This document shows positions 2,288 to 21,454 of a stretch of 24,967 bases of DNA, one piece after another (positions within the stretch are counted from its first letter, which is position 1; each line of letters opens with the position of its first letter). The stretch is from the IMG/VR virus record IMGVR_UViG_3300020084_000094, positions 1 through 24,967 of that record; one strand, 5' to 3'. Made by a program: the position numbers and the translations under genes. Source of the stretch: a virus. The notes below the pieces were generated by a model that was not told where the DNA came from, searched no databases, and saw nothing but the letters and a program-made list of their open reading frames with translations.

Positions 2288-3831
2288 GCCTGCTGACACA
2301 GTTGCTACAACCCAGCGCGGTGAACCTCGGCGACGAGCGCCTGTGGCGCATAGGCTCTATCGGCTCCACGGCCTATTCCGGCGTGCACGTGAGCCCCGAG
2401 ACGGCGCTGATGTCGTCCGCGGTGTGGGCCTGCACGCGCTTGATCTCCGAGTCCGTGGCCACCATGCCCGCGATCATGTACAGACGCCTTCCCGACGGCG
2501 GGAAAGAGCGCGCGACGAACCACCCGCTGTACACCGTGCTGCACGACGACCCGAACGAGATTCAGACGGCGTTTATCTTCAAAAGGACGATGATGGTGCA
2601 CGCCCTGCTCTACGGGGGCGGCTATGCGCGTATCACGCCGGGGCCGCGCGGCCCGGTGGACAGCCTCCAGCCGATCCACCCGGACAACATCACCACCGAG
2701 GGGCTGCCCGGCGGCGGCATCCGCTACATGGTGCGCGGCGAGGACGGCGTGCGCCGGCCGGTGAACGCCGAGGACGTGTTCCACCTGCCCGGCCTGAGCC
2801 TCAACGGCGTGGACGGGCTCTCCCTGGTGCAGTACGCGCGCGAGTCCATCGGCCTGGCGCTGGCCGCGGAGGGCTATAGCGCCAAGTTCTACTCCCAGAA
2901 CGCACGGCCCTCGGGCATCCTGAAGCACCCGAATAAGCTTTCGCCGGAAGCGGCGCAGCGCGTAAAAGAATCCTGGGAGGCGGCGCACGCCGGATTGCAG
3001 AACGCGCACCGTGTGGCCGTGCTCGAAGAGGGGCTGGAATGGGTGCAGACGGGGATGACGCACGCCGACGCGGAGCTCATCGCCCAGCTTGATTGGAGCG
3101 CGGCGGACATTGCGAGGTTCTTCAATGTTCCGCTCCATATGATCCAGTTGATGACGAAATCCACCTCCTGGGGCTCCGGCATCGAGGAAATGGGCATCGA
3201 GTTCGTGGTGTTCACGTTGCTCCCGTGGGTGAAAAACTGGGAGGAGTTGATCACCAAGAAGTTGATCTTGGCCCCGCAGAGCTACTTTTGCGAGTTCCTG
3301 CTGGACAACATGATGCGCGGCAAGCTCCAGGACAGGTACAACGCCTACGCCACGGCGCGCAACTGGGGCTGGCTGAGCGCCAACGACGTGCGCCGGTTGG
3401 AGAACATGAACCCCATCGAGGGGGGCGATCAGTACCTGCGCCCAATCAATACGATGGACATGGCTCAGCCCGAGCTGCCGCCGATGCAGCGCGCGCCCAC
3501 GGTGACGCCGACCGAAGGCCATTACCATCTCCTGCTCCATGAGGCGGCCTCGCGCGTGGTGCGCAAAGAGATCGCGGCCATGACCAAGGTCGCCAAGCGC
3601 ACGGCGAACAGCCCCGACGCCTGGGCCAGCGAGGTGGCCGAGTTCTACGCGGGCCACGGCGCCTTCGTGGCCGAGACCCTGCGCATCGGGCGCAGTGCGG
3701 CGGACGCTTATGCCGCGGAGCAGCGCTGCGCGCTGCAAGAGCATGGCGCGGGCGTCATGGAGGACTGGGAGACGAGACGGGCGGGGGACTTGATTACCTT
3801 GGTGCTGGAGGCCAACAATGCCGCTACCTGA
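2284..3831 (+). CDS. HK97-family portal protein, 515 aa
   Basis: Forms the dodecameric ring at one capsid vertex through which DNA enters and leaves. Features of the HK97 portal family are visible. There is a helix with the pattern SSAVWACTRLISESVATMP at about residues 44-62, followed by the clip/wing beta elements (MYRRLPDGG). Next come a HPLYTVLHDDPN segment and the central ALLYGGGYARI stretch. A long stem/crown region contains WSAADIARFFNVPLHMI, and the NDVRRLENMNPIEGGD segment is typical of the end of the family core. About 100 residues beyond that core form a helical tail (from about residue 410) that is longer than in compact portals. The start overlaps the preceding small gene (ATGA) and the 3' end overlaps the peptidase gene by 14 bases. 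Confidence 0.93.
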   Translation: MSLLTQLLQPSAVNLGDERLWRIGSIGSTAYSGVHVSPETALMSSAVWACTRLISESVATMPAIMYRRLPDGGKERATNHPLYTVLHDDPNEIQTAFIFKRTMMVHALLYGGGYARITPGPRGPVDSLQPIHPDNITTEGLPGGGIRYMVRGEDGVRRPVNAEDVFHLPGLSLNGVDGLSLVQYARESIGLALAAEGYSAKFYSQNARPSGILKHPNKLSPEAAQRVKESWEAAHAGLQNAHRVAVLEEGLEWVQTGMTHADAELIAQLDWSAADIARFFNVPLHMIQLMTKSTSWGSGIEEMGIEFVVFTLLPWVKNWEELITKKLILAPQSYFCEFLLDNMMRGKLQDRYNAYATARNWGWLSANDVRRLENMNPIEGGDQYLRPINTMDMAQPELPPMQRAPTVTPTEGHYHLLLHEAASRVVRKEIAAMTKVAKRTANSPDAWASEVAEFYAGHGAFVAETLRIGRSAADAYAAEQRCALQEHGAGVMEDWETRRAGDLITLVLEANNAAT

Positions 3832-4957
3832 ACCGCGAGACGGAGAAGCCTACGACGACTTTATCGAGCGCTGCATGGGAGATGAGAACATGAGAGAGTT
3901 CGACGACGCGGCCCAGCGCCGCGCTGTGTGCGAGCGCCAGTGGGATGACGCCCAGGACGACGGGGGTCTGCTGCATCCTCATTGGCAGGGTGTGGGGAAC
4001 CACACGCATTCGTTCAGCGAGCTTACCGATGGGGCGCAGCTAGGACCTATGCTGACACGCTATAGCCATATCGTCAGCTATGTGCTGAACACGCCCTGGG
4101 CCATCACCGCCGACAAACTGGCGCAGATCATGAGCCTGCTGGGCTTCTACGCCGCGGGGAACAAGTTCACTGCCGAGGAGGTGCGCGAGGCCATCGGCAT
4201 GAGCCAGCGGCCCAGCGCCAGGGCCTCCGGCGCGGTGCAGATCATCCCGCTGTACGGCATCATCACCCAGAGGGCGGGGCTGATGACCGAGACCAGCGGG
4301 GGCACCTCCACGGAGGCCTTCAGCCGGCAGTTCCGCGCGGCGTTGAACGACCCGCAGATCGGGGCCATCCTGATAGACGTGGACTCGCCCGGCGGCGCCG
4401 TCACGGGGGTGGACGAGCTCTCCAGCGAGATACACGCCGCGCGCGGCGCCAAGCCTGTGGTGGCCATCGCCAACTCGCTCGCTGCCTCTGCGGCCTACTG
4501 GATCGCCACGGCGGCGGATGAGCTGGTGATGACGCCCACCGCCGAGGTGGGCAGCATCGGCGTCCTGGCGGCGCATGAGGACGACAGCGCGTTCTACGAG
4601 CGCCAGGGGATCAAGACGACCTTGGTCAGCGCGGGCAAGTACAAGACGGAAGCCAACCCCTACGAGCCGCTCAGCGACGAGGCGCGCGCCTACCTCCAAG
4701 AGCGGGTTGATGAATACTACTCGATGTTCATCCAGACGGTGGCGCGCAACCGCGGCGTGTCCGTGAGCGAGGTGCGCGGCGGGTTCGGGGAAGGGCGCGT
4801 GGTGGGGGCCAAGGCGGCCAAGTCCATGGGCATGGTGGATCGCGTGGAGACGATGGACGAGACCATCGCCCGGCTGCAAAAGGGCCGCCGCTCGCGGGCG
4901 CAGTCTCAGGCGGAGCTGGATCGCCGCGCGAGACGGCTGCGGGCGCTGGCCGGATAG
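3818..4957 (+). CDS. S49-family (SppA/phage protein C-like) serine peptidase, likely head maturation protease, 379 aa
   Basis: Probable capsid-maturation protease that removes the scaffolding part of the capsid protein. Residues 137-355 form an S49 domain. They include IDVDSPGGAVTG (186-197), the Ser nucleophile region NSLAASAAYWIA (Ser224), TAEVGSIGVL (241-250), and a Lys general-base region SAGKYKTEANPYEPLS (Lys276), which together give a Ser/Lys dyad. Residues 1-45 form a separate acidic module (MPLPEPRDGE, ERCMGDENM, AVCERQW) with two Cys residues. I recognise it as a motif often seen at the N-terminus of phage head genes. A His-rich linker (HWQGVGNHTHSF, about 55-66) joins the two parts. 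GGAGG at 3807-3811 sets the start. The C-terminus is Arg-rich, consistent with interior binding in the prohead. The position between portal and capsid fits the role. Confidence 0.9.
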   Translation: MPLPEPRDGEAYDDFIERCMGDENMREFDDAAQRRAVCERQWDDAQDDGGLLHPHWQGVGNHTHSFSELTDGAQLGPMLTRYSHIVSYVLNTPWAITADKLAQIMSLLGFYAAGNKFTAEEVREAIGMSQRPSARASGAVQIIPLYGIITQRAGLMTETSGGTSTEAFSRQFRAALNDPQIGAILIDVDSPGGAVTGVDELSSEIHAARGAKPVVAIANSLAASAAYWIATAADELVMTPTAEVGSIGVLAAHEDDSAFYERQGIKTTLVSAGKYKTEANPYEPLSDEARAYLQERVDEYYSMFIQTVARNRGVSVSEVRGGFGEGRVVGAKAAKSMGMVDRVETMDETIARLQKGRRSRAQSQAELDRRARRLRALAG

Positions 4958-4959
4958 TA

Positions 4960-4988
4960 TTGACAACCCGTTCCGGGTATGCTATAAT
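4960..4988 (+). promoter_or_regulatory. Consensus sigma70-type promoter upstream of capsid gene
   Basis: TTGACA at 4960-4965 and TATAAT at 4983-4988 are separated by exactly 17 bases, and TGC immediately before the -10 box makes an extended -10 element. All twelve core positions match the consensus. Transcription should start near 4995, giving a leader of about 160 bases before the capsid ATG at 5155. It lies just past the peptidase stop (4955-4957), in the only sizeable non-coding gap of the window. The sequence match is certain; activity is inferred. Confidence 0.9.
4966..4978. promoter_or_regulatory. Inverted repeat in promoter spacer (candidate operator)
   Basis: ACCCG (4966-4970) and CGGGT (4974-4978) form a perfect inverted repeat around TTC, lying wholly between the -35 and -10 boxes. 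A protein bound here would block RNA polymerase, or a MerR-type activator could remodel the spacer, although 17 bases is already optimal. The arms are only 5 bp, so chance occurrence in GC-rich DNA is possible. Confidence 0.4.
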
Positions 4989-4994
4989 GGTTCG

Positions 4995-5121
4995 TAGATA
5001 GGCCCGCATCCCAGAGGCTCCGTCGAGACCCGAGGGGCGCAGGCAACACGGGAAACGCCTCCGACGAGCGCGCGAACCGTTGCGACACGATGCAAATCGT
5101 GGCGTGCGGACGCGCGTTTTT
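4995..5121 (+). ncRNA. Structured capsid leader RNA / candidate small RNA
   Basis: Predicted transcript from the promoter at 4960-4988. The first half has crossing complementarities. GAGGC (5014-5018) can pair with GCCTC (5057-5061), and CGTCG (5021-5025) with CGACG (5062-5066), which together would make an H-type pseudoknot with directly abutting 3' strands. CCCG (5029-5032) with CGGG (5049-5052) could form a small hairpin in its loop. The second half is a long hairpin ending in a run of five T. The RNA could be a capsid-mRNA leader, an attenuator, or a roughly 125-nt stand-alone RNA. The pairings are read directly from the sequence; the fold and function are inferred. No coding frame with a ribosome site is seen in it. 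Confidence 0.5.
5069..5121 (+). terminator. Long hairpin plus U5, intrinsic-terminator-like, in capsid leader
   Basis: CGCGCG (5069-5074) pairs with CGCGCG (5111-5116), CCG (5077-5079) with CGG (5107-5109), and GCG (5082-5084) with CGT (5103-5105, one G-U pair). CACGAT (5086-5091) pairs with ATCGTG (5096-5101) around a GCAA tetraloop of the GNRA type. Only small mismatches interrupt the stem, and TTTTT (5117-5121) follows directly. This is the shape of an intrinsic terminator, yet it sits between a strong promoter and the capsid ribosome site, so attenuation or an RNA-stability role is likely. Confidence 0.55.
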
Positions 5122-5154
5122 CGTTGCTCCGCCGCCACCCAGCCAAGGAGCAAC

Positions 5155-6471
5155 ATGCCAAAGAGGTATCAAGCGCTACTGCAAGAGCGCGCAGAGCTCG
5201 TGGCCGAGGCCCGGCGGGCCTTTGAGTCCGCCGAGAAGGACGCGCGCGACCTGACCGATGCGGAGCGCACGCGCGATGACGAGATCGCCGCCAGGCTGGA
5301 CGTCATCGCGAGCGAGCTCCAGAGAGAAGAGCGCCGGCGGGAGTGGGAACGCTCCGTTGAGGCCGTCGCCAAGCCGAATGCGGGAACCAGCGTCACCCTC
5401 CCCGGGGAGATCGCCCGCATCCTAGACGCGCAGGATCAGCCGTTCGAGAGCCTCGCCGAGCAGCTCCTGGCCGTGCGCCAGGCCGCGCTCCCTGGGGGCT
5501 ATGTGGATCTGCGCCTGCGCGCGCAGCTCGGGCATAACGTGGGCATTCCCGCTGAGGGCGGCTTCCTGCTGCACCCGCAGTACGCCGCGGGCATCTGGCA
5601 GCGGGTGTACGAGTCCGGCGCGATCATGAACCGCACCTTCAAGATTCCCATCGGGACGGACGCGGACTCGGTGCTCGTGAACGCGCTGGCGGAGAACAGC
5701 CGCGTGACCGGCAACCGCTGGGGCGGCCTGCAAGCCTACTGGGTGCAGGAGGCGGGCAACCCCACGGCCTCGCAAACCCAGTTCCGGCAGATGCGTTTCA
5801 GCCCGCACAAGCTCGCCGTGCTCACCTATGCCACTTCCGAGATGCTACGCAACCCGGCCACGCTGGAGGGCGTGATCAACCAGCTCGTGCCGCAGGAAAT
5901 CGCCTGGCAGACAGAGAACGCTTTCGTCAACGGCATCGGCGGCGGGCAGCCCATCGGGATTCTCCAGAGCGCGGCGCTCATCGCCGTGGCCCCGGAAGCC
6001 CTCCAGGCGGCGGCCACCATCGTTTCCGAAAACATCTCGAACATGTGGGCGCAGATGTGGGCCAAGAGCCGGCCCAACGCGGTCTGGCTCATCAACCAGG
6101 ACTGCGAGCCGCAGCTCGACCAGCTCAGCCTCCAAGTGGGCGTGGGCGGCGTGCCGACCTATATGCCGCCTGGCGGATTGGCCGACGCGCCCTATGGACG
6201 CCTCAAAGGGCGGCCCGTTATCGCTGTGGAATACTGCCCGACGCTGGGCACCCAGGGCGACATCATCCTGGCCGACTGGTCACAGTACGGCATGTCGGAT
6301 CGCGGCTCCATCCGCTCGGAGAGCTCGATCCACGTCCAGTTTCTCACAGATCAGATGGCCTACCGGTTCATCTATGAGGTGGACGGCCAATCCCTTTGGA
6401 ACGCGCCGCTCACCCCGGCGCAGGGCGCGAACCAGCTTTCGCCGTTCGTGACCCTACAGGCCAGGCCATAA
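5155..6471 (+). CDS. HK97-fold major capsid protein, 438 aa
   Basis: Main shell protein. The start is set at ATG 5155, after AAGGAG at 5145-5150. An upstream in-frame TTG at 5080 would put the leader hairpin inside the gene and has no ribosome site. Residues 1-75 are highly charged and predicted coiled coil (Glu/Arg-rich), matching the delta/scaffold domain removed during maturation in HK97-type phages. From about residue 110 the sequence has family features: GGFLLHPQYAAGIWQRVYESGAIMNRT, an E-loop/P-domain region with WVQEAG, and FSPHKLAVLTYATSEML. IGGGQPIGIL follows near the middle, and GRPVIAVEYCPTLGTQGDIILADWSQY toward the end. It probably receives its own transcripts from the upstream promoter. 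The peptidase next door is the likely processing enzyme. Confidence 0.94.
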   Translation: MPKRYQALLQERAELVAEARRAFESAEKDARDLTDAERTRDDEIAARLDVIASELQREERRREWERSVEAVAKPNAGTSVTLPGEIARILDAQDQPFESLAEQLLAVRQAALPGGYVDLRLRAQLGHNVGIPAEGGFLLHPQYAAGIWQRVYESGAIMNRTFKIPIGTDADSVLVNALAENSRVTGNRWGGLQAYWVQEAGNPTASQTQFRQMRFSPHKLAVLTYATSEMLRNPATLEGVINQLVPQEIAWQTENAFVNGIGGGQPIGILQSAALIAVAPEALQAAATIVSENISNMWAQMWAKSRPNAVWLINQDCEPQLDQLSLQVGVGGVPTYMPPGGLADAPYGRLKGRPVIAVEYCPTLGTQGDIILADWSQYGMSDRGSIRSESSIHVQFLTDQMAYRFIYEVDGQSLWNAPLTPAQGANQLSPFVTLQARP

Positions 6472-17359: not shown

Positions 17360-18143
17360 GCGCATCGTCTACAACGGTACGCCCTTATGGACGGCGGGCG
17401 CCTCGCCCAACGTGGCCTTCAAGCGCGAGGTGGACCTCACCGGGCGCACACACGTCATCGAGGAGCTGGGCGACACCTCCACCAACATCTACCGCGGCTC
17501 CAAGCGCAACACGCGCTCCTACGAGATCACCTGCGACCTGATCGCGGGCGGCGCATTCACATTGGCGCAACTGATCGCCTGGTGGGAGGAGACGCACAGC
17601 GCCGACGGCGGCCTGCGCGTGCTGTTGCGCGAGACGGGGACGGGCGTGTTCTACCTGGACTGCGTGCCCGAGGCGCCCAAGTGGGGCTCGGACAATGGGC
17701 CCGTGTTGATCGAGGTGGTGCAGACCTACACGGCGCCGATGCCGCTGTGGTATGGGGCCGAGACAAGCGCGAACGGCAATTTCAACGGGGGCGCGCCGGT
17801 GACCATTGTCTGCGCCAATGCGGGAGACGTGCCCAGTTGGGTGCGGCTCGTGCTGGAAGACGCGGTTGAGGACCCGCTCATTGAGGGGGCGGACTGGGAG
17901 ATCGAGTTCGCGCTCACCATGGGCGCAGGCGACGAGCTGGCGGTGAACTGCCAAACCCCGGCCAGCGCCTGGTACACCCCGGCGGGCGGGGCGGCCACGC
18001 GGGCCTACGGCTACCGCACAGAAGCGACATCGTTCCGCAAGGCCAAGCTGCAACCCGGGAACAACAATGTGGTCATCAGCGCGACGGCAGGCAATGGGCT
18101 CTGCACCGTCTACTGGAAACCGCTCTACGAGGCGCTGACCTAA
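17352..18143 (+). CDS. Distal tail protein (Dit)-like, 263 aa
   Basis: Likely hexameric hub at the tail end to which the tip/fibre protein binds. The start is taken as GTG 17352, six bases after GGAGG (17341-17345) and overlapping the tape measure stop; the in-frame ATG upstream at 17298 lies deeper in that gene without a ribosome site. The N-terminal half has the Dit belt pattern (REVDLTGRTHVIEELGD, then GSKRNTRSYEITCDLIAGG) and ends with VEVVQTYTAPMPLWYG, similar to the strand-PxW signature that closes the belt domain. The C-terminal half (from about residue 150) is a beta-sandwich. Its place between tape measure and tip genes is canonical. Its stop overlaps the next ATG (TAATG). Confidence 0.75.
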   Translation: MPERIVYNGTPLWTAGASPNVAFKREVDLTGRTHVIEELGDTSTNIYRGSKRNTRSYEITCDLIAGGAFTLAQLIAWWEETHSADGGLRVLLRETGTGVFYLDCVPEAPKWGSDNGPVLIEVVQTYTAPMPLWYGAETSANGNFNGGAPVTIVCANAGDVPSWVRLVLEDAVEDPLIEGADWEIEFALTMGAGDELAVNCQTPASAWYTPAGGAATRAYGYRTEATSFRKAKLQPGNNNVVISATAGNGLCTVYWKPLYEALT

Positions 18144-21100
18144 TGCCATACACGAGCACCGGCGTCTGGCGGCCACACCGCTGGGATGATTGGGAAATCG
18201 AGCTCATTGACGGCAATCTCGACACCGTGGGCGTGGTGGACGAGGCCGTGGGGCTGCGCGCGGTCTGGGGGCAATACGGGTACGGCGACGGCTCGCTGGC
18301 GCTGCACATCAAGAGCGACCTGGCGGCGCTGCTTCTCGCAGACGGCATGTTTTACTTTCGCTTGATGCGCGACGGCCAACAGCTCCGCGACTTGATGATC
18401 GCCAAGGACGACCGCGGCTACACGGTCTCCAACCAATACGTGGACGAGTATATCGAGATCAGCCTGTCACCGCTGGATGCCGTGCTGCGCGACAAGATCT
18501 GCATCGACGCCGTAAACCCCAATCAGAATTTCCAGAGCCCCGACTGGCCGCTGGACGACGCCATGAAGTGGATCGTGGACCACACCTGCGGCCCGAGCGC
18601 CATCAACGGGCCGGGGGGCTCCAACCGCGTGCTGCCCGGGCTGACCATCGCGGCGAACGTAAGCGCGCACCCGCTCGATGACGAGGTGGATGACGCGCAC
18701 AAGATGGACCTGTTCCAGTTCCTGCAAAAGTTCGGCCCCACCTGGGACGTGGACTGGCGCGTGCGCATGGAGCGTACCCTCGGCGTGGCCAACCAGATGG
18801 TGTTCGAGACGTTCTACCCTCCGCGCGGCGCCGACAAGACAGTGGGCAACGGCAGCCCGTTCATCCTGCTGAACGACGCCTCGGGGGAGATACGCCAGGC
18901 GCGGCGCTACCGCCCGGCCACCGGGTTCGTGAACGCCGTCATCGCCAAGGACTATTCCAGCGAGGTCACGGACGCGGCGAGCGTGGCGCTCTACGGGCGG
19001 CGCGAGCTGATCGCGGACACGACGGCGACGAACCGCCTGCGGGCCATCCTGGCGGAGCGGGCGCAGCGCCTGGGCTATGACTTTACGTTCACCGAGAGCG
19101 AGATGGTGACCGTGGGCCAGGGCACAGCGGCAGACGGCGAGTTCGGTTTGGGCGACGAGATCACCATCGCCGTAGAACACCTCGACCTGCCCAGCGTAGA
19201 TGAATACGTCAACCAGGTTAAGTTCCAGCTCACGAAAGAGGGAGAGGAGGAGGTCAGCCTGGTCTTTGGCCGCCCGGAGAAGAGTCTGGGCGACAAAGTG
19301 GGCGAGGGGGGCGGCGGAGGCGGCGGCAGAGGCGGCGGAGCCGTGCCGCTCTGGGACCCGATCCGCGGGCTGCGTGACGCCGCGAACCTGTTCGTGCCCT
19401 TCTCGGGCGAGGACGACTATCAGAGCGTCAAGCTGGCCAACGGCGGCGGGTTGACCATTGTGGGCAACGTGCCCACGAACACGATCACCCTGACGGTGAG
19501 CAGCGGCGACCCGGCGGCGCACGACATCATCGGCGCCAAGCACTATGTGGCGGGCGTAGCAAACAAGCTCGTGGGCCTGACGGGCGTAGACACGCTGGGG
19601 CTGCTCTCCATCGCGGCGGGGACAGGGATCAGCGTCAGCGGCGTGACGGTCAGCCTGGCGAACACTGTGGTAACGCCGGGCAGCTATGGCGGCGCGCAGC
19701 ATGTTGGCTCGTTCACCGTGGACCAGCAGGGGCGGCTGACCGCGGCGAGCAACGTGGCCATCAGCGGCGTGACGCCTTCGGCGCACGATGTGGTAGGCGC
19801 GCTGCATACCATCGCCGCGGCGCAATACCAGCTCGTGGGGGCCACGGGCGCGAACACGCTGGGGCTGCTGACTCCGAGCGCGGATGTATCCGGCGGCGGC
19901 ACGGCCATTCTGCGAAGCGCCGCGGGCATTCTCACCCTGCTCCGCTGCGCGTTTACGGCAGACCAGTACATCCTGGGCGGCGGCAGCACGCTCTCCTTCT
20001 ACGCCGCGTCGGTGCATACCTGGGTCGTGGGCGGGGCTCAGGAACTTGCGCTTACGGCGGCGGCGCTGTATCCCATGACCACGGGCGGGCTCGACCTGGG
20101 CACGTCCAGCCTGCGTTGGGGCGTGGCCTATATCACGACGCTGAATGCCTCCGGCACGACGCACTATATCCGAGGAGTTACCTACGTCTGGCCAGCGGCC
20201 AACGCTGTCGGCTCATTGTGCAACGACGGATCGGGAAATTTGTCATGGGCGGCGCCGACGCCCTCGGCGCACGCGATTACCGGAGATCGGCATACTGTTA
20301 CCGGATCACAGTATCAACTCGTGGGCCTGACGGCGGCGAACACGCTGGGGCTGCTCACCCTTACCGCAGGAACGGGTATCAGTATCAGCGGCGTGACGGT
20401 CAACCTGGCGAACACTGCGGTAACGCCGGGCAGCTATGGCAACGCCACCAACGTCGGCTCGTTCACCGTGGACGCGCAAGGCCGGCTGACCGCGGCAGCG
20501 AACGTGGCCATCAGCGGCGTGACGCCTTCGGCGCACGACGTGGTGGGCGCGCTGCACACCATCGCCGCGGCGCAATACCAGCTCGTGGGGGCCACGGGCG
20601 CGAACACGCTGGGGCTGCTGACTCCGAGCGCGGACGTATCCGGCGGCGGCACGGCCATTCTGCGGAGCGCCGCGGGCATTCTCACTCTGCTCCGCTGCGC
20701 GTTTACGACAGACCAGTACATCCTGGGCGGCGGCAGCACGCTCTCCTTCTACGCCGCGTCGGTGCATACCTGGGTCGTGGGCGGGGCTCAGGAACTTACG
20801 CTTACGGCGGCGGCGCTGTATCCCACGACCACGGGCGGGCTCGACCTGGGCACGTCCAGCCTGCGTTGGGGCGTGGCCTATATCACGACGCTCAACGCCT
20901 CGGGCACGACGCACTATATCCGAGGAGTTACCTACGTCTGGCCAGCGGCAAACGCGAGCGGGGCGCTGTGCAATGATGGGGCGGGCAACCTCTCCTGGGC
21001 AGCCCCTGTGCCCGCATCACATAACTTGTTGAGCGCCGCCATACATGGGGATACGGCAGACGGAAATGTTGTGCGGGGTGATATCATCACTGGACAGGGA

Positions 21101-21454
21101 GCAACTCCTGCCTGGATGCGGCTGGCAAAAGGTAATGCGAACGATGTGCTGATTATGGGGGCTAATGAACCGCAATGGAGCAATAGCCTCACGATAACGA
21201 ATCTGACAGCCGGGGGCAAAAATATTGTCACGCACACGCATGGACTGACTTTTACGAATACGAATTCGGGTAACAATACTGACTTTAGCAATCCATCCAT
21301 TCGGGCGGCTCTTGCGTGGTTCTCGGGCCCATACGTTTATTGCAGTGACAGTTCTGACGGTAGCAATCCATATTGGACGAAGATGGAATTGATGGATGGC
21401 ACCCATACGCATTTGTACGCCAAAACCGACACCCCTACAGGGGGAATGAGCTAG
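18143..21454 (+). CDS. Tail-tip / fibre protein with duplicated repeat domain, 1103 aa
   Basis: Probably the tail-tip hub fused to a receptor-binding fibre. Residues 1-385 resemble siphovirus ReqiPepy6 Gp37-like tip proteins: an opening WEIELIDGNLDTVGVVDE, a strand GDGSLALHIKSD, then MKWIVDHTCGP and VNAVIAKDYSSEV, and a closing EYVNQVKFQLTKEG. A Gly-rich hinge at about 388-402 joins the fibre. Residues 457-956 are two 250-residue copies built from S-A-H-D-V-V-G-A-L-H and Q-L-V-G-x-T-G-A-N-T-L-G-L-L motifs, which are typical of fibre shafts. Residues 957-1103 form the tip, with HNLLSAAIHGDT, a DIITGQGATPAWMRLAKG module common in phage fibres, and His-rich THTH segments. The tip is more AT-rich than the shaft. 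No peptidase motif was seen. Confidence 0.8.
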   Translation: MPYTSTGVWRPHRWDDWEIELIDGNLDTVGVVDEAVGLRAVWGQYGYGDGSLALHIKSDLAALLLADGMFYFRLMRDGQQLRDLMIAKDDRGYTVSNQYVDEYIEISLSPLDAVLRDKICIDAVNPNQNFQSPDWPLDDAMKWIVDHTCGPSAINGPGGSNRVLPGLTIAANVSAHPLDDEVDDAHKMDLFQFLQKFGPTWDVDWRVRMERTLGVANQMVFETFYPPRGADKTVGNGSPFILLNDASGEIRQARRYRPATGFVNAVIAKDYSSEVTDAASVALYGRRELIADTTATNRLRAILAERAQRLGYDFTFTESEMVTVGQGTAADGEFGLGDEITIAVEHLDLPSVDEYVNQVKFQLTKEGEEEVSLVFGRPEKSLGDKVGEGGGGGGGRGGGAVPLWDPIRGLRDAANLFVPFSGEDDYQSVKLANGGGLTIVGNVPTNTITLTVSSGDPAAHDIIGAKHYVAGVANKLVGLTGVDTLGLLSIAAGTGISVSGVTVSLANTVVTPGSYGGAQHVGSFTVDQQGRLTAASNVAISGVTPSAHDVVGALHTIAAAQYQLVGATGANTLGLLTPSADVSGGGTAILRSAAGILTLLRCAFTADQYILGGGSTLSFYAASVHTWVVGGAQELALTAAALYPMTTGGLDLGTSSLRWGVAYITTLNASGTTHYIRGVTYVWPAANAVGSLCNDGSGNLSWAAPTPSAHAITGDRHTVTGSQYQLVGLTAANTLGLLTLTAGTGISISGVTVNLANTAVTPGSYGNATNVGSFTVDAQGRLTAAANVAISGVTPSAHDVVGALHTIAAAQYQLVGATGANTLGLLTPSADVSGGGTAILRSAAGILTLLRCAFTTDQYILGGGSTLSFYAASVHTWVVGGAQELTLTAAALYPTTTGGLDLGTSSLRWGVAYITTLNASGTTHYIRGVTYVWPAANASGALCNDGAGNLSWAAPVPASHNLLSAAIHGDTADGNVVRGDIITGQGATPAWMRLAKGNANDVLIMGANEPQWSNSLTITNLTAGGKNIVTHTHGLTFTNTNSGNNTDFSNPSIRAALAWFSGPYVYCSDSSDGSNPYWTKMELMDGTHTHLYAKTDTPTGGMS
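19511..21010 (+). repeat. Tandem 750-base duplication in fibre gene
   Basis: Copies at 19511-20260 and 20261-21010 are in frame (250 residues each). The middle and end of each unit (19771-20209 and 20521-20959) are almost identical at the DNA level, with scattered, mostly single-base changes, whereas the first 260 bases differ more. A related start at 21011 marks the tip module. Confidence 0.92.

Follow-up and report, generated by a model that had tools for sequence, protein, structure and literature searches.

What does the RNA between the promoter and the capsid gene of an uncultured phage fold into, and could it control the gene that follows? Tailed phages require very many copies of their capsid protein, and the timing and limiting of capsid synthesis have mostly been attributed to promoters and late antitermination. 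The locus lies in a 24,967-base IMG/VR phage record, analysed over its full length (the window), in which the gene order is terminase, portal, S49 protease, capsid, tape measure and tail. The protease and capsid genes are 197 bases apart, and this interval contains a perfect promoter. An initial annotation, made from the letters alone, had proposed a structured regulatory RNA downstream of the promoter, drawn as a pseudoknot followed by a long GNRA-looped hairpin and five U residues. We find that the capsid leader is a genuine conserved RNA element, with a structure that differs from this drawing. Its features and their surroundings are as follows, in window coordinates.

3818-4957, plus strand: S49 protease gene, the upstream neighbour in members whose record covers the upstream gene.
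4960-4988, plus strand: promoter TTGACA-17-TATAAT with TG before the -10 element, 12 of 12 consensus matches.
5002-5044, plus strand: outer stem of hairpin 1 (HP1), 5002-5012 paired with 5034-5044, with internal loop AGA/CGA, from folding.
5016-5030, plus strand: HP1, GG-CUC-[CGUC]-GAG-(A bulge)-CC, from covariation among 13 leaders.
5056-5072, plus strand: hairpin 2 (HP2), candidate antiterminator, CGC-CUC-[CGAC]-GAG-(C bulge)-GCG, from covariation and alternative pairing.
5066-5121, plus strand: terminator-like hairpin (5066-5119) with T5 (5117-5121), its 5' arm overlapping HP2 at 5066-5072.
5123-5154, plus strand: 8-bp hairpin GTTGCTCC/GGAGCAAC around the capsid Shine-Dalgarno sequence, 5123-5130 paired with 5147-5154, from folding.
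5155-6471, plus strand: HK97-type major capsid gene, ATG at 5155 (PF05065, E 3e-40).

The consensus promoter named in the initial annotation was confirmed, and promoters of 10-12 matches stand at the corresponding place in L109, L110, L113 and L240. Neither the Shine-Dalgarno hairpin nor the two tandem hairpins had been noted. The former is kept in L109 and L113, and both of its sides are changed in L116. Farther downstream, about 645 bases of the tail-protein gene (window 18143-21454) are directly repeated within it at 93% identity (gene positions 1422-2063 and 2173-2813).

Relatives were gathered with capsid, portal and S49 queries, each used as an alignment. L008, which is one record with L109 (capsid identity 67%), gave the earliest homologous leader; it retains GAGGCTCCGTYGAGACCCG and ACACGGGAAMCGCCTCCG, and it keeps the terminator hairpin, in which pairs have changed. 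Further homologous leaders were L110, L113, L114, L115, L116, L118 and L119, and a scan with the hairpin-pair pattern added L249, L253, L258, L228 and L240, each of which precedes a capsid gene and has an S49 protease gene immediately upstream where the record covers that gene. The pair is located once per phage, between the S49 protease and HK97-type capsid genes, in more than 20 IMG/VR phages. A covariance model, R1, matches the window at 5008-5075 with 62.6 bits; the 14 core records score 45-63 bits, with one clear copy per phage, and all other matches score at most 36 bits. L366 (35.6 bits), L117 (24 bits) and L044/L047 (17 bits) lie at the corresponding place and resemble diverged members. 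The pattern also matched many pentapeptide-repeat genes, which consist of tandem 15-nt repeats, and gave other chance matches in coding sequence (L108, L111, L308, L309, L311 and L312); we discarded these on the basis of their context, reading frame and covariance score. The capsids of the window, L109, L113-L115, L249, L253 and L258 are mosaic: the N-terminal delta domain travels with the S49 protease, and the body is exchanged.

The annotation had also stated that no named RNA family could be assigned. This holds for Rfam 15, which gave no match in the window or in 14 related loci at gathering score, and none for 4900-5200 even at E 10. We found no description of this tandem-hairpin element in the open-access literature. 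There was no covariance match in 14 bacterial genomes with capsid relatives (150 candidates scored per genome) and no pattern match in 398 Pseudomonadota genomes. Among phage records, capsid identity is about 30% at best, and the nearest S49 protease (43%) is that of Sinorhizobium phage NV1.1.1, which has a 24-nt gap and lacks the element.

The conserved unit consists of two hairpins, each with a three-pair stem (CUC/GAG being commonest) closed by C-G, a C-[CGWH]-G tetraloop, often a single bulged base on the 3' side, and a lower stem. Across 13 leaders, the tandem-hairpin model had a covariation score of 0.447 compared to 0.131 ± 0.027 for shuffles, none of 500 reaching the observed value, and shuffle-based scores of this kind are inflated by the relatedness of the sequences. 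Slid versions of the model scored at most 0.155. The model paired 86.9% of cells, with double changes in 12 of 17 pairs, and the four innermost pairs of the HP1 outer stem also change on both sides. Swapping 3' flanks among hairpins broke the lower stems, with a mean of 3.6 pairs observed versus 1.6, the first of these values being depressed by the second hairpin of L240, which was placed three bases off register. The strong covariation and the recurrence of the element at the corresponding place in many phages support the idea of a structured regulatory capsid leader.

Two other readings of the conserved letters were rejected. An anti-Shine-Dalgarno role had been conceivable for the hairpin CUCC, but these letters covary with their partners (CGC/GCG, UUC/GAA, GUC/GAC and GCC/GGC), and therefore it is the stem, not CUCC, that is conserved. 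An inverted-repeat DNA operator is less likely, since G-U pairs and the 3'-side bulge are retained. HP1 and HP2 are spaced 41-43 nt apart in the eleven promoter/terminator leaders (window, L109, L110, L113, L116, L240, L258, L339, L342, L343 and L366) and about 23-50 nt apart in the promoterless ones. The internal loop RGA/CGA (window 5013-5015/5031-5033) is kept in the window, L110 and L113, with CGC in L109, and may form non-standard G-A pairs between the outer stem and HP1.

The pseudoknot did not survive the same analysis. Its crossing 5-bp helices are present in the letters, yet their covariation score across the 13 related leaders was 0.106 compared to 0.112 for shuffles, with 445 of 500 shuffles reaching or exceeding the observed value. 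Helix 1 forms in 55% of cells of that alignment, and a proposed helix is broken in L008 (CGTTG versus CGTAG). Crossing 5+5-bp pairs with adjacent 3' strands arose in 122 of 3000 dinucleotide shuffles (~4%), and crossing 5+5 pairs of any kind arose in 758 of 3000. The segment 5001-5068 folded no better than its shuffles (z +0.16). The H-type pseudoknot was thus rejected, its covariation being absent and its shape common by chance.

The long hairpin with U5 at 5066-5121, in contrast, was borne out. Segment 5066-5122 alone folds at -30.3 kcal/mol (z -3.3, with 2 of 200 shuffles equally stable), nothing notable is seen on the opposite strand (z -0.9), and the predicted stem with U5 has the shape of an intrinsic terminator, a GC-rich hairpin followed by a U run. 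Such stems are conserved with changed pairs and U runs in L109, L110, L113 and L116, and short U tracts are found in L240 and L258. The annotated GCAA loop does occupy 5092-5095 but is not conserved in related leaders, and its GNRA character is incidental.

HP2 and the terminator-like hairpin are alternative pairings of shared bases in the window. Among leaders of the window's type, seven of seven (window, L109, L110, L113, L116, L258 and L240) have one stretch that can serve both as the 3' arm of HP2 and as the 5' arm of the terminator-like stem. At its first position the stretch has G, A or C depending on the phage, and the partners of this letter in HP2 and in the terminator both change accordingly. 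We folded growing transcripts thermodynamically, as in all folding reported here, and HP2 had a probability of 0.75-0.99 until the 3' arm of the terminator was made, then fell to approximately zero in all seven; HP1 was formed at most lengths. In controls with the downstream part shuffled, HP2 was also frequently lost (mean probability 0.18-0.71), so its loss in a single leader is weak evidence. Because HP2 is often lost anyway in GC-rich shuffles, the weight of the evidence falls on the double covariation rather than on the loss. L335 behaved like the seven, exclusion was partial in L366, and in L339, L342 and L343 HP2 lies directly against the terminator without competing with it, and both can form together. 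Given these three leaders, strict competition between HP2 and the terminator is not universal in the folding predictions. The terminator stems have energies of -30 to -51 kcal/mol compared to -6 to -8 kcal/mol for HP2, and with this gap of roughly 24-43 kcal/mol HP2 would need outside help to win. No local promoter, and no obvious terminator on the HP2 arm, was found in L114, L115, L118, L119, L249, L253, L228 and L044.

The S49 search supplied leaders that had not been used to define the motif. The pair was seen in L318, L320, L324, L328, L329, L339, L342, L343 and L366; L326 and L335 have three hairpins each, and L322 has a weaker form. Ten of these leaders contained 16 counted hairpins, compared to 0.11 in shuffles. 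The covariation of 22 held-out hairpins, mostly from the S49-search leaders, was 0.679 versus 0.167 for shuffles, in a register picked by eye, which favours structure. A sliding control gave at most 0.179, so the choice of register is not the whole cause of this score. The loops of the S49-search leaders drift to CAUU, CAUA, CUUU and CCAA, the last replacing CGWH in all three hairpins of L335 (~1765-1870) and both hairpins of L339 (~3107 and ~3148). Hairpins of one phage tend to have a common loop class even where the class shifts, with unlike loops in L366 (CGUC/GGUA) and L322 (CUUU/CAUA). L391, from the Paraburkholderia phymatum STM815 plasmid pBPHY01, carries GUUC[CAUU]GAAC and GAUC[CAUC]GAUC at 1840-1890, between the S49 protease and capsid genes. 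These hairpins, in a prophage of a culturable host, are possibly a diverged pair.

The tandem hairpins, their place and conservation, their covariation and the alternative pairings of HP2 and the terminator are computed results. The initial annotation had offered three functions for the leader: an attenuator, a capsid-binding RNA and a small RNA. Of these, the attenuator agrees best with the alternative pairing of HP2 and the terminator, and we put the chances at about even that transcription of the capsid gene is attenuated by its leader in a factor-dependent way. The strong promoter would start the RNA, and HP1 would fold first, followed by HP2 about 42 nt away. If HP2 is left unheld, its 3' arm would be captured by the far more stable terminator-like hairpin, and transcription would halt at approximately 5121, leaving a transcript of roughly 125 nt. 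Binding of the hairpin pair by a trans-acting factor, for which an RNA-binding protein of the phage with contacts to both loops is the likeliest candidate, would hold HP2, block the terminator and allow the capsid gene to be transcribed. The common loop class within most phages and the 41-43-nt spacing in eleven leaders suggest that one factor holds both hairpins. A functional terminator, protein binding, the kind of protein involved, and a switch that acts positively and late are the inferred parts of this model. In relatives without the promoter and terminator, the pair would have to work differently, the same factor probably controlling translation or the stability of the RNA.

The neighbouring genes offer candidates for this factor. 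The distribution of the element follows the S49 lineage and the N-terminus of the capsid, for which identity is 43-62% in most members versus 21-36% in relatives without the element, and it does not follow the capsid body (33-72% versus 46-62%). This linkage makes the S49 protease and the capsid N-terminus candidate factors. RNA-phage coat proteins control synthesis by such binding, and the N-terminal delta domain of the capsid, or the S49 protease, could likewise bind the hairpin pair and tune capsid synthesis autogenously; that the element is also present without promoter and terminator would suit such control. We nonetheless consider it unlikely. Linkage to neighbouring genes alone would yield an identical pattern, L319 has the same N-terminus without the element, and other N-termini occur in L118, L228, L044 and L117. 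Moreover, neither the capsid nor the S49 protease has a known RNA-binding fold.

A second alternative dispenses with the factor. The leader could be an antitermination RNA like the put sites of phage HK022, which would modify polymerase without any protein and let it pass adjacent and later terminators. Two tandem hairpins near a terminator, constantly spaced in the promoter-bearing leaders, would be expected of such an RNA, as would the retention of the pair in leaders without a local terminator and the coexistence of HP2 with the terminator in L339, L342 and L343. A constant antiterminator ahead of its own terminator would be purposeless, however, and in eight leaders the terminator takes the HP2 arm and would destroy the hairpin. 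The drift of the loops (CGWH, CAUY and CCAA) is also large for a site that binds conserved polymerase, and overall we find this reading quite improbable.

The perfect promoter and strong terminator-like hairpin of the window, L109, L110 and L113 could instead delimit a small RNA unit of about 125 nt, made stable by the outer stem and HP1, which would act in trans or as a protein sponge while the capsid gene is expressed by read-through from upstream. This proposal has little to recommend it, since the pair is retained in phages without a local promoter, always at the capsid gene, and a small RNA would have no need of the overlap between HP2 and the terminator. That the hairpins protect the capsid messenger at its 5' end, or act as nuclease sites, is very hard to credit. 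They lie 5' to a highly expressed gene and are present also without the terminator, but such a role would leave the conserved tetraloop, the bulge, the common loop class and the double pairing of HP2 and terminator unexplained.

Beyond the factor-dependent attenuator itself, we tentatively raise a wider and somewhat doubtful idea, that the leaders belong to a family of RNA switches in phages that has not been described before. A dedicated phage RNA-binding protein, perhaps the maturation protease or the delta domain of the capsid, would read the tandem C-[CNNN]-G tetraloop hairpins and so tie shell production to assembly, and the loop class (CGWH, CAUY or CCAA) would change with this protein. 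If this is true, a conserved switch before the capsid gene would add an extra layer of control across distantly related uncultured phages, and it would indicate an RNA-binding factor and a new loop-protein pair. Model R1 and the clear members make the element directly testable.

Several known systems resemble parts of this leader. Operators of the MS2/PP7 type are hairpins close to the coat gene that combine a bulged base with a short loop, and a short-looped, bulged hairpin close to a coat gene is found here as well. Those operators belong to RNA phages, whose coat fold is unrelated, and place a single hairpin over the replicase start, whereas the present leader is from a dsDNA phage and has two hairpins with the bulge on the 3' side. 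HK022 put RNAs also form two stem-loops in a phage leader and let polymerase pass terminators, a likeness drawn by description and not by sequence; they serve early operons and have no need of terminator overlap. The RAT of BglG, SacY and LicT targets is a single hairpin of another sequence, in contrast to the two or three hairpins of the phage capsid leader. The likeness lies in a candidate protein-held hairpin that overlaps a terminator, as the protein-held RAT hairpin does (PMC3369931).

The closest parallel is with the targets of ANTAR proteins, 5' leaders in which two small hairpins have a common loop motif and the second precludes an intrinsic terminator that it overlaps; certain copies lack the terminator (PMC3369931). 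Each loop has six nucleotides, the first being A and the fourth G, and the linker is 5-12 nt long (PMC3369931). The ANTAR domain (PF03861) had no match in 29 phage records, which are mostly fragments, and a gene for the factor could lie in the host or in another part of the phage. Like the dual-hairpin antiterminators recognized by EutV, NasR and AmiR, the capsid leader has tandem small hairpins, and the second overlaps the terminator in all seven window-type leaders and L335, less clearly in L366, and not in L339, L342, L343 or the promoterless members. Unlike them, its loops are C-CGWH-G or C-CCAA-G including the closing pair, with no A at position 1 and no consistent G at position 4, and HP1 carries an extra outer stem in the window's group. 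Judged from sequence and predicted pairing, the layout of the capsid leader is that of the ANTAR targets and its loop is different.
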